Source: Massilia sp. Root335 (GTDB taxonomy: Bacteria > Pseudomonadota > Gammaproteobacteria > Burkholderiales > Burkholderiaceae_D). From it: a stretch of 64,000 nt of DNA. The notes below the pieces were generated by a model. It was not told the origin of the DNA. It saw nothing but the letters and a program-made list of their open reading frames with translations, and did not search any database. Of this stretch, positions 7,976 to 42,574 are shown in pieces. Location of the stretch: NCBI RefSeq assembly GCF_001425685.1, contig NZ_LMCY01000026.1:215590-279589 (forward strand). The letters are read 5' to 3'. The position numbers and the translations under genes were made by a program. Within the stretch, counting starts at the first letter, position 1. Each line of letters starts with the position of its first letter.

Positions 7976-8046
7976 CCGTCGTTCCCGCCTGCGCGGGAAC
8001 GACGGGTCAAGCATTCATCCACGCCTGCGCGGGGGGCGACGAGCCA
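7976..8046. repeat. Family-A palindromic repeat (REP-like), one good and one degenerate copy
   Basis: A perfect 13-bp stem with loop CTGC at 7976-8005; the inner arms are GTTCCCGC and GCGGGAAC. A degraded second copy lies at about 8019-8046 (GCCTGCGCGGGG, GCGACGAG). It occupies the convergent junction between the cupredoxin gene and fliE and could end both transcripts. Related copies lie in flgH, between flgE and flgF, and inside flhG. Confidence 0.85.
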
Positions 8047-25781: not shown

Positions 25782-26489
25782 TTAAAATGGCAGCAATGAC
25801 TGGAAGAAGCGCGACATCATCGAGGTCATCTCGGCGCGGTCGATCTGGCTGTTGGTGCGGTACTCGACGCGGGCGTCGGCGACCAGGGTCGACTGCACGA
25901 TGTTGCCCGGCTGGATCGTGTCAGGATTCACCATGCCCGAGAAGCGGATGAACTCGACGCCCTTGTCCATGGCGATCTGCTTTTCGCCGACGACGATCAG
26001 GTTCCCGTTCTGCAGGACTTCCGACACCGTCACGCCGATCGTGCCCGTGAAGGCATTCGACGCGGTCTGCGTGTCGCCATCGGCGTACTTGGTGCCGCTG
26101 CTCGTGGCGAGGCTGGCGCCCAGGCGGCCCTGCAGCGGACCCGGCACGCCGAGGTTGACGCTGCCCGACTTGTTGCCCGTGCTGGCGCCGCTCTTGTTGG
26201 CGGCCGTCTTCTCGACGATGCTGATCGTGAGGATGTCGCCGATGTGGCGCGCGCGCCGGTCCTCGAACATGGGACGGAACGTGTTCGCGTTGTAGATCGC
26301 GCCTTCCGTCGGCGTGCCGGCGTCGGCCAGCATCGGCCGCACCGTGGTCGGCCCCTTGACGATCGACGTCGGCGTGGATGCGCAACCGGCCAGCGCCAGC
26401 AGAATCGTCATCCCCGCGCAGGCGGAAATCCTAGCGGCGAACGTCGTCCCCGCGCAGGCGGGGACCCAAGTTTTACTTACCATTTTCAT
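25782..26489 (-). CDS. flgH: Flagellar L-ring lipoprotein FlgH, signal peptide built partly from repeat DNA
   Basis: Outer-membrane ring lipoprotein. The 235-residue protein has the FlgH body: [60 protein letters not shown] and [20 protein letters not shown]. The lipobox is LAGC with Cys36, inside [14 protein letters not shown]. The ATG at 26489 overlaps the flgG stop (ATGA), the ancestral-looking start. Residues 5-27 ([12 protein letters not shown] and ISACAGMT) are encoded by two family-A repeats, so the signal peptide's n-region and early h-region come from repeat DNA. The next ATG leaves only nine residues before the Cys, too short for export. Confidence 0.93.
26406..26472. repeat. Two family-A repeats inside the flgH 5' end
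   Basis: Copies at 26406-26431 and 26442-26472 (CGTCGTCCCCGC...GCGGGGACCCAAGTTTT), same orientation on the plus strand. They lie within the flgH signal-peptide codons, so the flgH mRNA begins with two GC-rich hairpins at its translation start. Confidence 0.9.
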
Positions 26490-28101: not shown

Positions 28102-28243
28102 CCGTCGTTCCCGCGTACGCGGGAACCCAATTTCTGCACGCGTGCACGCGAACTTGGGCCCCTGCCTGCGCAGGGGCGACGTGCATGCTTTTGCTCTCCA
28201 ACATGCGCCGTCGTTCCCGCGAAGGCGGGAACCCGAGTTTTGC
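28102..28243. repeat. Family-A repeats, three copies, flgE-flgF gap
   Basis: Forward copy about 28102-28136 (CGTCGTTCCCGC...GCGGGAACCCAA), inverted copy about 28151-28180 (AACTTGGGCCCC...GGGGCGACG), forward copy about 28207-28243. The first two form the same head-to-tail inverted doublet seen inside flhG. The block splits the flg operon between flgE and flgF and could cause processing or partial termination of the transcript. Confidence 0.9.
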
Positions 28244-38299: not shown

Positions 38300-39043
38300 T
38301 CAGTGCTGCGCCAGCAGGCACGCCACGCGCTCTTCGATCACACGCGTGTAGTCGCCGGTGGCGATGTCGTGGAAGACGTCGGTCAGGATTTCGTACTGGG
38401 CCACGCGCTCGGCGACGATGCCCTTGATCTTGTTGCCGACCGGGTAAAAGAACAGGTTCGCGAGGCCGACGCCGTACACGGTCGAGACGAACGCGACGGC
38501 GATACCGGCGCCAAGGCGCGACGGGTCGGACAGGTTTTCCATCACGTGGATCAGGCCCAGCACGGCGCCGAGGATGCCGACCGTCGGCGCATAGCCGGCC
38601 GCCGATTCCCAGATGCGCGCGGCCTGGCGTTCGCGGAATTCGTAGGTGTTGATTTCCGTGTCGAGCAGGCTGCGCAGCTTGTCCGGCTGGATGCCGTCGA
38701 CGACGAGGCGCAGGCCCTTCTGGATGAACGGATCGGCCTTCGCGACGTACTGTTCGAGCGACAGCAGCCCGTCGCGCCGTGCCGACAGGCTCCACAGGTT
38801 GATCTCGCGTGCGAGCGCCTGGCGGCGGTCGGGCGGCGTGATGAACACCCAGCGCAGCATGCGCACGCCGCGCACGAACGCCTGCGATTTGGTCTGCAGC
38901 AGCACGGCGCCGAACGTGCCGACCACGACGATGGCGAACGCGGCCGGCTGGATCAGCGAGGAGAATTTGCCGCCGTCGAGCGTGTGCCCGATGAAGACCC
39001 CGGCGAGCGCCAGTGCGAGGCCTAGCAGGCTGGTCAGGTCCAC
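38300..39043 (-). CDS. motC: Flagellar motor stator protein MotC (MotA-like)
   Basis: Membrane stator half that pushes on FliG. The 247-residue protein has four membrane helices, two near the start (LLGLALALAGVFIGHTL; PAAFAIVVVGTFGAVLLQT) and two later (YAPTVGILGAVLGLIHVMEN; GAGIAVAFVSTVYGVGLANL). The cytoplasmic loop carries LSLEQYVAKADPFIQKGLRL with the charged residues expected. It starts with GTG and overlaps the fliA end by 10 bases. A MotAB pair is not in the window. Confidence 0.96.
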   Translation of the reverse strand: MDLTSLLGLALALAGVFIGHTLDGGKFSSLIQPAAFAIVVVGTFGAVLLQTKSQAFVRGVRMLRWVFITPPDRRQALAREINLWSLSARRDGLLSLEQYVAKADPFIQKGLRLVVDGIQPDKLRSLLDTEINTYEFRERQAARIWESAAGYAPTVGILGAVLGLIHVMENLSDPSRLGAGIAVAFVSTVYGVGLANLFFYPVGNKIKGIVAERVAQYEILTDVFHDIATGDYTRVIEERVACLLAQH

Positions 39044-39753
39044 GAACGCTCCCGCAGATAGGTACGCAGGCGCGCCACGGCCTGGGTGTGCAGCTGCGAC
39101 ACGCGCGATTCCGACACGCCCATCACGGCGCCGATTTCCTTGAGGTTGAGTTCTTCTTCGTAGTACAGGCCCATCAGCATCTTCTCGCGCGGCGGCAGCG
39201 CGTCGATGGCGTCGATGACGGTCTGGCGGAAGTCCGTGTCGAGCAGGCTCTTGAGCGGGTCGTCGTCGTCCACGGCATAGCGGTCGAGGAAACTGTCGCT
39301 GCCCTCTTCGTCATGGAAATCCTCGTAGTACACGAGCTGGTGGCCGCCGGAATCGCCCAGCAGGTCCTGATAATCGGCCAGCGACAGCTTGAGCGACTTC
39401 GCCACCTCGGATTCGCTGGGCGGACGGCCCAGCTGCTGCTGCAGCGTAGCCATGGCCTGCTCGACCTTGCGCATATTGGCGCGCGTGGAGCGCGGCATCC
39501 AGTCGCTGCTGCGCAGCTCGTCCAGCATGGCGCCGCGGATGCGCAGCACCGCATAGGTCTCGAACTGCGCGCCGTGGTTCTCCTCGTAGCGGTTGATCGC
39601 ATCGAGCAGGCCGATCATGCCTGCCTGTACCAGGTCATCGACTTCGACGGACGGCGGGAGCTTGGCCTTCATCTGGTGGGCGAGACGCTTCACCAGCGGC
39701 ATGTGCTCCGTCAGCAAGGAGTTCTTGTCCGCTTTCCCTTTGACCGTGTACAT
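39034..39753 (-). CDS. fliA: RNA polymerase sigma-28 factor FliA
   Basis: Sigma factor for late flagellar genes; recognises the three promoters found in this window. The 239-residue protein has region 2 (LVKRLAHQMKAKLPPSVEVD, DLVQAGMIGLLDAINRYEEN, YAVLRIRGAMLDELRSSDWM), region 3 (LGRPPSESEVAKSLKLSLAD) and region 4 (LPPREKMLMGLYYEEELNLK, EIGAVMGVSESRVSQLHTQA). In the minus-strand run flhF-flhG-fliA-motC-motD, 29 bases after flhG. Confidence 0.98.
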   Translation of the reverse strand: MYTVKGKADKNSLLTEHMPLVKRLAHQMKAKLPPSVEVDDLVQAGMIGLLDAINRYEENHGAQFETYAVLRIRGAMLDELRSSDWMPRSTRANMRKVEQAMATLQQQLGRPPSESEVAKSLKLSLADYQDLLGDSGGHQLVYYEDFHDEEGSDSFLDRYAVDDDDPLKSLLDTDFRQTVIDAIDALPPREKMLMGLYYEEELNLKEIGAVMGVSESRVSQLHTQAVARLRTYLRERSWT

Positions 39754-39782
39754 GGTTCCAGTAATTAATTATTCTTCGCCGC

Positions 39783-40679
39783 TCAGGCGGCCCGTCCCTG
39801 CTGCATGCCGGTGCGCGCGAAGCGCCCCGCCAGGCGGCGGAAAGCCACCGAAGCGCCGGCCAGCGGGAATGCGTCGACCACGGCGCGCCCGAGGCGCGCG
39901 GCGCGGTGCAGGTACTCGTCCGCCGGCACGGAGCCCATGGAGCTCAGCGTTACCGCCAAGTAACGAGTTGCCGCAGATGACATATTATCGTATACCACCT
40001 TCGCCTCGGCTTCGGTAGCGCCGGTGACAAGAATACCGAACGGACGGCGGCCGAGCTGCTGCGACAGTCGCTTGATCAGCGCATACGCGTTCGTGATCGA
40101 CGCCGCGCTCGTCGACACCTGCACGACGATCTCGGACGTGGCCATGATCGGCACGGGGAACATGCCGTCTTCGGAAAGCTCGCCGTCGACCATGATGATG
40201 CTGCCGGACGATTGCTGGACGAGGACGTCGAAGGTTTTGGCGAGGCGCCGCATCTCGTCAGCCGCACCTCCCGTCGCTCCCGCGAAGGCGGGAGCCCAAT
40301 CTTGCTGGCGTACCCGGCTGTTCGAAGACACCTGGGTCACCGCCTGCGCGGTGACGACGTTTTTATACGCCATCTTGACTACCGAAAACCCCTGCGGCAC
40401 CGCATGGATCACCTGGTTCAGCGCGCATTCCTGGCGTGCCACGTGCAGCAGGCTGGGGCCGCGGTCGACGCCGAGGCGCTGGGCCACGCCGTAGTCGCGC
40501 GTGCAGGCGTCCACGATCATCACGTCGTTGCCGGACTGGGCCAGCGAGGCGCCCAGGTTGACGAGCATGGCGCCCTTGTCGTCCTCGGGCGTGGCGGAAA
40601 GAAAGGTCACGATGCGCGGCTTGGGGCCCGCCAGCATCCGGCGCAGGCCCTCCGCCTGGTCGAAGTCGAAACTAGCCAA
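39783..40679 (-). CDS. flhG: FlhG (FleN/MinD-like) flagellar number regulator, degenerate P-loop, repeat insertion
   Basis: MinD-type protein that limits flagellar number with FlhF. The 298-residue protein keeps the N-terminal DQAEGLR motif (7-13; DQAxxLR in the family activates FlhF GTPase). Where family members have KGGVGKT it reads SATPEDDKGAML (28-39), so no P-loop is visible; VMIVDACTRDYG follows normally. Residues about 107-137 (NVVTAQAVTQVSS...DWAPAFAGATG) are encoded by an 89-bp inverted family-A repeat pair. The remainder fits FlhG/MinD, though the sequence is diverged. Starts with TTG overlapping the flhF stop (TTGGCTAG). Confidence 0.85.
   Translation of the reverse strand: MASFDFDQAEGLRRMLAGPKPRIVTFLSATPEDDKGAMLVNLGASLAQSGNDVMIVDACTRDYGVAQRLGVDRGPSLLHVARQECALNQVIHAVPQGFSVVKMAYKNVVTAQAVTQVSSNSRVRQQDWAPAFAGATGGAADEMRRLAKTFDVLVQQSSGSIIMVDGELSEDGMFPVPIMATSEIVVQVSTSAASITNAYALIKRLSQQLGRRPFGILVTGATEAEAKVVYDNMSSAATRYLAVTLSSMGSVPADEYLHRAARLGRAVVDAFPLAGASVAFRRLAGRFARTGMQQGRAA
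40271..40359. repeat. Family-A inverted doublet inside flhG
   Basis: Forward copy with stem GCTCCCGC/GCGGGAGC and loop GAAG; inverted copy with stem GTCACCGC/GCGGTGAC (40336-40355) and loop CTGC. Elsewhere in the window the stems read GTTCCCGC/GCGGGAAC or GTCCCCGC/GCGGGGAC. Both stems differ at paired positions and still pair, so the hairpins look maintained although the DNA is also translated. Confidence 0.88.
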
Positions 40680-42144
40680 CGTACACCTCGCGCAGCGAAC
40701 GGTCGTTGTTCAGGTTGCCGAGGCCGGCCATCATCAGCGGCAGGTCGGCGTCAAGCAATTGCGCGGCGGCGTCGCGCTTGTTGCGGAAGGCGCGGTCGAC
40801 GAGCATCGCGCGGTCGGCCAGGTGCAGGTCTTCCGGCACGCGCTGGCCGGTGGAGATGTAATACAGGTTCAGCTTCTGGCGCACGAGCACGTCCAGCACG
40901 TTGCCGATCGACGCGGCCTCGTCCAGCTTGGTCATGATGCAGCCGGCCAGGCCGGTGCCCTGGTAGGCGCGCACGACTTCGTTGAGGGTCTCGTTGGTCG
41001 ACGTCGCGTTCAGGCACAGCAGGCGCTTCACGTCGGCGCCGGACTCCGTCAGCATGGCGACCTGTTCGGTGACCATCTGGTCGCGCTGCGACATGCCGAT
41101 CGTGTCGATCAGCACGGTGTGCTTGTTGCGCAGTTCCTTGAGGGCGATGCGCAGGTCGGCCTCGTCCTTCACCGAGTGCACCATCACGCCCAGGATCTTG
41201 CCGTAGATGCGCAGTTGTTCGTGGCCGCCGATACGGTAGGCGTCCGTCGTGATCAGCGCCAGCTTTTCCGGACCGTGGCGCATCACGCAGCGGGCCGCCA
41301 GCTTGGCGGTGGTGGTCGTCTTGCCGACGCCGGTCGGGCCGACCAGCGCGAACACGCCGCCGCGGTCGAGGATGGCATCCTCGTCGGCCATCGTCGTGAT
41401 GTTGCGCGACAGGACAGTCTTGATCCAGCGCAGCGACTCGGCAGCATCCTTGCCGGCCGGCAGCTTGTCGATCAGGTAGCGTGACAGGCTCGCCGAAAAA
41501 CCGGCGGCCAGCATCTCGCGCAGCACGGCGGCCTTCTGCGGCTCGCGCTGCTGGGTGCTGCCCCACGACAGTTCGGCCAGTTGCGTTTCCATCATGCCGC
41601 GCATGGCGCGGATTTCGTTCATCATGCCGCTCATTTCGGCGGCGGCGGACTCTTTCGCCTGGGCGATCGCGGCCGACATCATCGCGGTCATCGCAGCCAT
41701 GTCGAAGGCCGGCGTTTCCGGTTGCGGGGCGCGGCGGTTGGCATACGTCGGCGGCACGGCAGGCGCGGCCGGCTCGTCCAGGTCGTACAGCGAATTCAGC
41801 GATTGGCGCGGGGCCGGGGCTTCCTGGAAGGAACGGGCCTGCGGGGCTTCCTGGAAAGCGCGCGCGGGGCGTGCGGCCGGGCGCGGCGCCGGTGCCGGTG
41901 CCGGTGCGGGTTCGAAGTCATCGAACGAGGGTTCCTGCATGTGCAGGTTCGGACGCGGCGCCGCCATCTCGGATTCCGGCGCCGGCGAGGCCAGCGACGC
42001 GACGTCGTCGTTGTCCAGCGCCAGGATCTCGACCACGCCATCGACCGGGCGGTTCGACAGGATGACCGCGTCCGGCCCCAATGCCTCGCGCACTTTGCGC
42101 AGGGCTTCACGGGAAGTCGCCGCTGTAAATTTCTTCACGTTCAT
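40672..42144 (-). CDS. flhF: Flagellar biosynthesis GTPase FlhF
   Basis: SRP-type GTPase that places the flagellum. The 490-residue protein has an N-terminal B domain (MNVKKFTAATSREALRKVRE), an Ala/Pro-rich linker (about 55-145), an N domain (about 185-255) and a G domain with G1 GPTGVGKTT (269-277), ALITTDAYRIGGHEQLRIYG, VLIDTIGMSQRDQ and TKLDEAASIGNVLDVLV. The ATG at 42144 has GGAGA 7 bases upstream; the frame extends 24 codons further without support. Overlaps flhG by 8 bases. flhA, normally next to it, is 2.2 kb upstream. Confidence 0.96.
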   Translation of the reverse strand: MNVKKFTAATSREALRKVREALGPDAVILSNRPVDGVVEILALDNDDVASLASPAPESEMAAPRPNLHMQEPSFDDFEPAPAPAPAPRPAARPARAFQEAPQARSFQEAPAPRQSLNSLYDLDEPAAPAVPPTYANRRAPQPETPAFDMAAMTAMMSAAIAQAKESAAAEMSGMMNEIRAMRGMMETQLAELSWGSTQQREPQKAAVLREMLAAGFSASLSRYLIDKLPAGKDAAESLRWIKTVLSRNITTMADEDAILDRGGVFALVGPTGVGKTTTTAKLAARCVMRHGPEKLALITTDAYRIGGHEQLRIYGKILGVMVHSVKDEADLRIALKELRNKHTVLIDTIGMSQRDQMVTEQVAMLTESGADVKRLLCLNATSTNETLNEVVRAYQGTGLAGCIMTKLDEAASIGNVLDVLVRQKLNLYYISTGQRVPEDLHLADRAMLVDRAFRNKRDAAAQLLDADLPLMMAGLGNLNNDRSLREVYVG

Positions 42145-42574
42145 CGTTGTTCTCCGCTCTTCCTGGCTGTGGCTCAAGGTGGTTCGCTGTCCGGTCATGC
42201 GGGCACAATGGCCCATTCACGGAGAGGATTATTGACGATGCCAGGAGGAAACGATTGGAGGAAAAGGCGGGGGAAAATCCGCCTATTCAATCAAACTCAA
42301 AACGCCGGGACATTATTTCCGAAGAATAATTCTGGTCACAGCCCGCGATCGCTGCCATCCTGTCACATGTACGGCCGAGAATTGCGCGACTGGTTGTCAT
42401 TTCGACATGATCAATGTAGCGAATTGTGCAAACAATGTAAGGAAACGCAAAATTTCTGAAGGCTCTGGTAATTTAAATAACGGCAAATCTATTCAATTGT
42501 AACGACCGGCGTCCACGCTCATGCTAGACTGTATTTAAAAAACGATGAGATGGTCGACATAGAAAGGCCAGCAG
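42145..42574. other. Intergenic region between flhF and a small membrane protein gene
   Basis: 430 bases, increasingly AT-rich to the right. It must contain the promoter for flhF and one for the 78-residue gene at 42575, before which an extended -10-like TGCTAGACT lies at about 42521-42529. No gene or repeat of either family was found. Confidence 0.4.

Follow-up and report, generated by a model that had tools for sequence, protein, structure and literature searches.

The flagellar gene flhG of a soil bacterium very probably harbours a tolerated selfish REP insertion, in which one matched base change may have come about by template switching between the two arms of a stem. The window, i.e. the whole stretch of 64,000 nucleotides analysed, is part of contig C26 of a 7.11-Mb genome (G000), and in the comparison of flhG genes the nearest named relatives of this genome are Massilia. 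According to the proposed scheme, an 88-bp CGTC-type REP dimer would have entered flhG in the ancestor of a few species of the Massilia group. Its frame would be translated as part of FlhG, and the insert would have been kept since the receiving loop can accommodate some 30 additional residues, with no need for either the peptide or the hairpin. With less certainty, an A-T pair in one stem may have arisen during replication by quasipalindrome template switching, in which one arm serves as the template for the other; this would have given a P to T and a G to V substitution without selection for structure. The scheme builds on a defined unit with dispersed relatives in the genome, on relatives without the insert, on an open frame, on the loop position and on the double change at the fourth base pair of that stem (pair 4).

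Matched changes in a stem are usually read as proof of a selected structure. The flhG stem lies in a coding loop for which insert-free relatives exist, and its double change helps the 8-bp stem and opposes the longer hairpin. Because of the coding loop and these opposed energies, the flhG REPs constitute a small natural test of whether mutation or selection lies behind covariation. The gene is central to motility, FlhG being a flagellar-number protein, and a single tolerant loop of it has received REPs, probably on two occasions. If the proposed scheme is true, arm copying would give correlated amino-acid changes that mimic structural selection. A broader generalization, which we consider possible but doubtful, is that REP hairpins repair themselves by template switching, that a REP within a gene imposes paired amino-acid changes mimicking structural selection, and that REPs land repeatedly in the flhG loop, which records this across Massilia.

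The flhG gene and its product

The insert lies in an open reading frame (ORF) that is arranged with its neighbours as follows:

39783..40679, minus strand: flhG (MinD/FleN-like), 298 codons; the TTG start overlaps the flhF stop
40672..42216, minus strand: flhF, upstream neighbour
39034..39753, minus strand: sigma-70 family gene, downstream of flhG; presumably fliA, judged by its position

Profile searches match the ORF at 39783-40679 to FleN (8p53, E 9.3e-29) and FlhG (4rz3, E 5.3e-16), and the best PDB matches to its structure model include MinD, FleN and FlhG. The Pfam search returned no family for this ORF, and its matches to the NCBIfam MinD models fall under their cut-offs. Both a MinD-like fold and an flhF neighbour, by which FlhG/FleN proteins are recognized, are found, and the ORF is assigned as flhG by neighbourhood and homology.

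The AlphaFold model of FlhG (47 sequences) has a mean pLDDT of 63.8, with values of about 30 in the insert. The pLDDT is below 50 at model residues 108-136 and at the two ends (1-9 and 242-297). The model numbering is one below that of the ORF, as the first residue was left off, and the internal stretch corresponds to ORF residues 109-137. The insert is thus predicted to sit in a length-variable, low-confidence, disordered loop of FlhG, at the place (residues 107-137) where the initial annotation had suggested looking for a surface loop.

The Walker A position is presumably 40566-40598 (flhG residues 28-38), which reads SATPEDDKGAM. A canonical Walker A motif is not present in the FlhG of the window; DDKGA (ORF residues 33-37) is found instead, each letter being at least 90% conserved across 47 aligned relatives. 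Because DDKGA is conserved in the place of Walker A, nucleotide use may differ from that of other FlhG proteins.

The REP dimer in flhG

The element and its parts are the following:

40272..40359, minus strand: 88-bp REP dimer (REPIN-like unit), CGTC tags outside, in frame, flhG residues 107-137
40276..40295, plus strand: REP hairpin 1, GCTCCCGC-GAAG-GCGGGAGC, with the CGTC tag at 40272-40275 and the CCA tail at 40296-40298
40336..40355, minus strand: REP hairpin 2, coding strand GTCACCGC-GCAG-GCGGTGAC, with the CGTC tag at 40356-40359
40299..40332, no strand assigned: inter-REP spacer

The layout of the dimer is a CGTC tag, an 8-base arm, a 4-base loop, the second arm, a CCA tail and a spacer, followed by the inverted repeat of these parts; the flhG dimer accordingly has two 8-bp stems with 4-nt loops and CCA tails on the inside. 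The initial annotation had described an inverted repeat pair of 89 bp at 40271-40359, in frame within flhG at about residues 107-137. The pair is present and the reading frame and residues agree, but the unit is one base shorter. Most full-length genome matches start and stop within a few bases of 40272 and 40359. When the genome was queried with the whole unit and flanks of 7 and 10 bases, 67 matches were obtained (including itself and some places matched on both strands), many of which span the unit at about 70-78% identity. Rfam gave no match in 39600-41200. Five flhG loci recur below: L113 (the window locus, G000), L114 (G026), L115 (G021), L116 (G019) and L117 (G057).

A dispersed and mostly intergenic REP family

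A strict stem pattern gives 248 matches (136 + 112, a few palindromic places being counted twice) in the 7.11-Mb genome and none in a reversed control, which confirms that the repeat family occurs elsewhere in the genome. An open-stem pattern (CGTC-N8-loop-N8-CCA, with one of three loops) finds 385 places, 214 of which were listed; 168 of these were taken as members and 46 were dropped by their stem letters, a filter that leans slightly towards the consensus. Pairing is perfect in 126 of the 168 members (from the 214 of 385 places listed). Furthermore, 1293 of 1344 pair cells are Watson-Crick, compared with a mean of 1107 and a maximum of 1134 after shuffling. The pairing bias proposed for the variation among copies is therefore found, and stem covariation in this REP family is real. 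Pairs 2, 3 and 6 swap as pairs, with swaps at pair 3 being common in G000, and pair 6 shows one complementary double change (G-C). The 13 deviating cells at pairs 4 and 5 comprise 12 one-sided changes and one T.T, and none is complementary. The first stem pair is G-C in 138 members and the second T-A in 110.

Further members in the window are:

28107..28232, no strand assigned: three intergenic REPs of the same family, with unit starts at 28107, 28158 and 28213
26446..26465, plus strand: REP GTCCCCGC/GCGGGGAC, at the start of a called gene
7981..8000, no strand assigned: REP GTTCCCGC/GCGGGAAC, with CGTC tags on both sides

Complete head-head dimers of 79-96 bp number 15 in 823 kb, and since 72 of their 90 frames are open, REP dimers can often be read through. 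Placement was judged with a simple purpose-made gene caller, by which about 78% of the 823 kb is called coding. A single one of 22 REP loci lies well inside a called gene, namely the flhG copy, and two more lie at doubtful gene starts; the family is mostly intergenic, and its REPs avoid genes.

Four REP loci besides flhG were placed in genes by the first gene caller. Three of them, at C26:18162, 108406-108530 and 241999/242035, are near ORF starts. The fourth, in a 725-aa ORF (C26:100415-102590), was rejected as an in-gene REP: in G026 the corresponding frame is interrupted by a stop and carries no insert, and the composition of the ORF resembles that of an antisense frame. A second caller keeps flhG, C26:241999/242035 (residues 8-27) and C3:267541 (residues 17-24), and with it the REP locus at C26:101185/101242 overlaps partially with a gene end. 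The loci at C26:241999/242035 and C3:267541 were rejected as in-gene REPs, as their starts are probably wrong, with negative coding scores upstream of the REP.

At C26:108406-108530, three REPs form a tandem with 62-bp steps, all of them GCCCCCGC/GCGGGGGC. The two Y1_Tnp genes of the genome have no REP of this family within their 1.5-kb flanks. At a Y1_Tnp (RAYT-like) gene on contig C52 (L001), both strands translate the peptide SEPGFWK from nearby frames, which suggests another inverted repeat in its vicinity. In other genomes, one pattern counts 140 REPs in G026, 287 in G021, 292 in G019, 415 in G057, 254 in G056 and 102 in G031. Over 400 kb, G026 and G000 have different REP subtypes at several matching intergenic places.

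Distribution in relatives and insertion history

The REP peptide is found at the flhG loop in 3 of 81 named rows (80 named relatives plus the window); its presence in all relatives, which would count against an insertion, is thus not what is observed. Within the genus, flhG was found in 62 of 62 genomes, and 61 frames are readable. L169 (G037), which has no readable full-length flhG frame and consists of two separate matching pieces, one in a 91-aa frame, was excluded from the counts. When a paired REP stem is defined by the REP core and 7 or more of 8 pairs, 5 of the 61 genes have such stems at the loop and 56 do not, and the search for insert-free strains by aligning flhG to relatives was thereby successful. 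The 88-bp unit is common to G000, G026 and G021, and G019 and G057 have a different dimer without a spacer. The linker measures 18-27 residues in 54 of the 61 genes and 34-49 in 7. L118 and L119 (G028 and G001) have 34-residue linkers with a REP-like core at 9 of 10 letters and 4-5 of 8 pairs, possibly a decayed REP remnant, and were left out of the REP count. A similar weak REP-like core is seen in the short linker of L166. At the family level, flhG was matched in 161 of 215 genomes at E 1e-40; among the rows listed, only the G000 match is broken at the loop and no distant flhG with the same insert peptide was seen.

A tree of 28 loci was calculated with the loop removed and with L134 and L142 left out. 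L113 and L114 are sisters (94/90), as are L116 and L117 (100/97), which adjoin the insert-free L131 (91/78), and L115 falls among insert-free species (100/99). With L118 and L119 counted, the long linker needs at least four changes on this tree. Near the loop, L115 is closer to L113 and L114 and is without the 3-base deletion common to L120-L126. Over most of the flhG locus, L115 is closer, by small margins, to L121, L122 and L124, giving a mosaic. Local recombination is the simplest reading of this pattern. Alternatively, the long form of flhG would be ancestral and lost in relatives, which agrees with L115 carrying the insert though its whole locus groups with insert-free species. However, the insert matches dispersed REPs, G000 alone is broken at the loop among the listed rows of the 161 family genomes, and the L115 pattern is confined to the loop, as from recombination, making an ancestral long form exceedingly improbable.

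The dimer of L116 and L117 starts two codons nearer the conserved Lys-Met than the 88-bp unit. Because of this offset start and the missing spacer, it is probably a second, independent insertion in the flhG loop; a shared origin of both dimers with later losses is less probable. In L116, the loop is expanded further by an 18-base piece of the REP arm that is repeated in tandem and in frame (VVPASSN repeats).

Matched base changes and folding

Of the 87 coding bases of the insert, three are changed in the window alone when L114 and L115 serve as reference. One lies in the spacer, and the other two (C to A and G to T) face each other at pair 4 of hairpin 2 (40339 with 40352). Pair 4 is A-T in the window and C-G in both L114 and L115, and the double change alters the protein, replacing P by T and G by V. 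Three changes placed at random would include a complementary pair with a probability of 0.0043, a value that assumes even rates and concerns one event that the initial annotation had picked beforehand. The double change is known from one assembly. By comparison of these loci, GTCACCGC/GCGGTGAC is a real double change of the window lineage at one base pair. The initial annotation had both stems changing together, which holds for this stem and not for the other: L115 carries GCTCCCGC/GCGGGAGC unbroken, L114 carries it with a single break, and 3 other copies among the 168 members share it (the flhG copy being the fourth), so that it is ancestral, with no local change. L114 differs from the others by one tag change and two one-sided stem changes, so that one of its stems has a mispair and the other a T.G pair, and L115 has three changes in the spacer and one in the loop. 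L116 and L117 differ at four sites of their dimer, which form two complementary pairs (3.5e-5 if random), namely pair 3 (C-G/T-A) and pair 1 (G-C/A-T).

Folding separates the short stem from the long hairpin. In the RNA short stem, the energy is -18.2 kcal/mol with C-G, -11.1 and -11.0 with the single changes and -15.9 with A-T. For the full RNA hairpin, it is -55.5 with C-G, -53.3 and -52.2 with the single changes and -50.0 with A-T, and DNA parameters give the same direction. The A-T double change thus restores the short stem only and weakens the long hairpin, and since each step makes the full hairpin less stable, the long fold is unlikely to be under selection. Folding of the region gives z-scores of -4.13 (RNA) and -2.66 (DNA). 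The claim that the hairpin is kept stands for the short stem of the window but not for the full hairpin, nor for the damaged stems of G026.

Selection could keep the hairpin if REP RNA or DNA structure tuned flhG translation or decay, damage to one arm then calling for a compensating change. In 4 of the 5 genomes whose flhG loop has REP stems, both stems pair perfectly, and the z-scores and the complementary L116/L117 differences point the same way. However, both G026 stems are damaged, the window double change weakens the long hairpin more than either single change does, and 56 of 61 genus genes have no paired REP stem, so that this explanation appears unlikely.

Both arms might also have changed at once, through conversion from, or replacement by, other REP copies of the genome. 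The L116/L117 variants are both common in G019 (the variant listing covered G019), and conversion is therefore possible there; the swaps at pair 3 in G000 and the subtypes differing between G000 and G026 at matching places fit as well. For the window this route is already disfavoured: a search of the whole genome by a pattern that leaves the loop and the outer pairs free finds A-T at pair 4 in the flhG copy only, which lends no support to copying from another REP, and the remainder of the insert was not replaced. Overall, such an exchange is a possibility of the minor kind. The pair-4 change is compatible with arm copying in the short hairpin and also with two chance changes. Arm copying cannot be frequent, as pairs 4 and 5 of the 168 copies have no complementary double change.

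Among the three species with the 88-bp unit (7-8 changes a pair), dN/dS is 0.45-0.58 in the insert and 0.06-0.10 outside; for L116/L117 it is 0.36 and 0.09. A value below 1 in the insert allows for weak constraint. The insert might accordingly be a useful part of FlhG, such as a partner-binding segment, kept for its peptide, with which the frame kept in three species and the probable double arrival of REPs at this loop agree. This is nonetheless highly unlikely, considering that the two insert types differ in sequence, that the insert is predicted to be disordered and that its dN exceeds the value outside by a factor of about 3 to 5.5. Tolerated insertion of a selfish REP dimer remains the preferred reading.

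Comparison with known systems

The CGTC-1 REPs, in the available portion of their description (Di Nocera, De Gregorio and Rocco 2013, PMC3733652), share with the flhG unit the CGTC tag, 8-bp stem, 4-nt loop, CCA tail and head-head dimers, and with the Massilia family the mostly intergenic location and the lack of a transposase alongside. Their in-gene copies encode 20-30 residues, and the REP in flhG likewise stands in an open frame that is presumably translated. In contrast, the same portion describes the first two positions of the stem as nearly always A-T, whereas the first pair is mostly G-C here, although the stem numbering may differ. CGTC and GTAG REPs are already reported there inside genes of several bacteria, protein loops are suggested to tolerate them, and two Xanthomonas recB genes have REPs at about the same site (PMC3733652). 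The in-gene kind of REP is therefore already known; the available main text names neither Massilia nor flhG, fleN or flagella. The Rickettsia elements RPE-4 and RPE-6, assigned to CGTC-4 and CGTC-1 in that portion, are also palindromic repeats in frame within genes (PMC3733652), in another host and other genes, and are likened here by description.

REPINs, according to the accessible part of their description (Bertels and Rainey 2011, PMC3116915), resemble the flhG unit as inverted REP doublets that can fold as one hairpin and are dispersed as one unit. REPINs have been linked with RAYT transposases, whereas neither Y1_Tnp gene of this genome has such a REP within 1.5 kb; because neither of the two is thus flanked by the same REP, the flhG unit is named REPIN-like only. 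Template switching at inverted repeats in yeast, as outlined in the part of PMC8604942 available, parallels the flhG case in arm homogenisation, nonsynonymous changes and arms of 7-16 bp, but concerns yeast coding genes, not REPs. Template switching has also been proposed for RNA stems, by the available text of PMC8794818. A literature search on REP and Massilia gave nothing on an flhG-type insertion, judged by title, and one on REPIN, in-frame insertion and coding sequence found none. As far as searched, the flhG case adds to these systems a new gene and genus, a probable second insertion in one loop and a lineage-specific double change.
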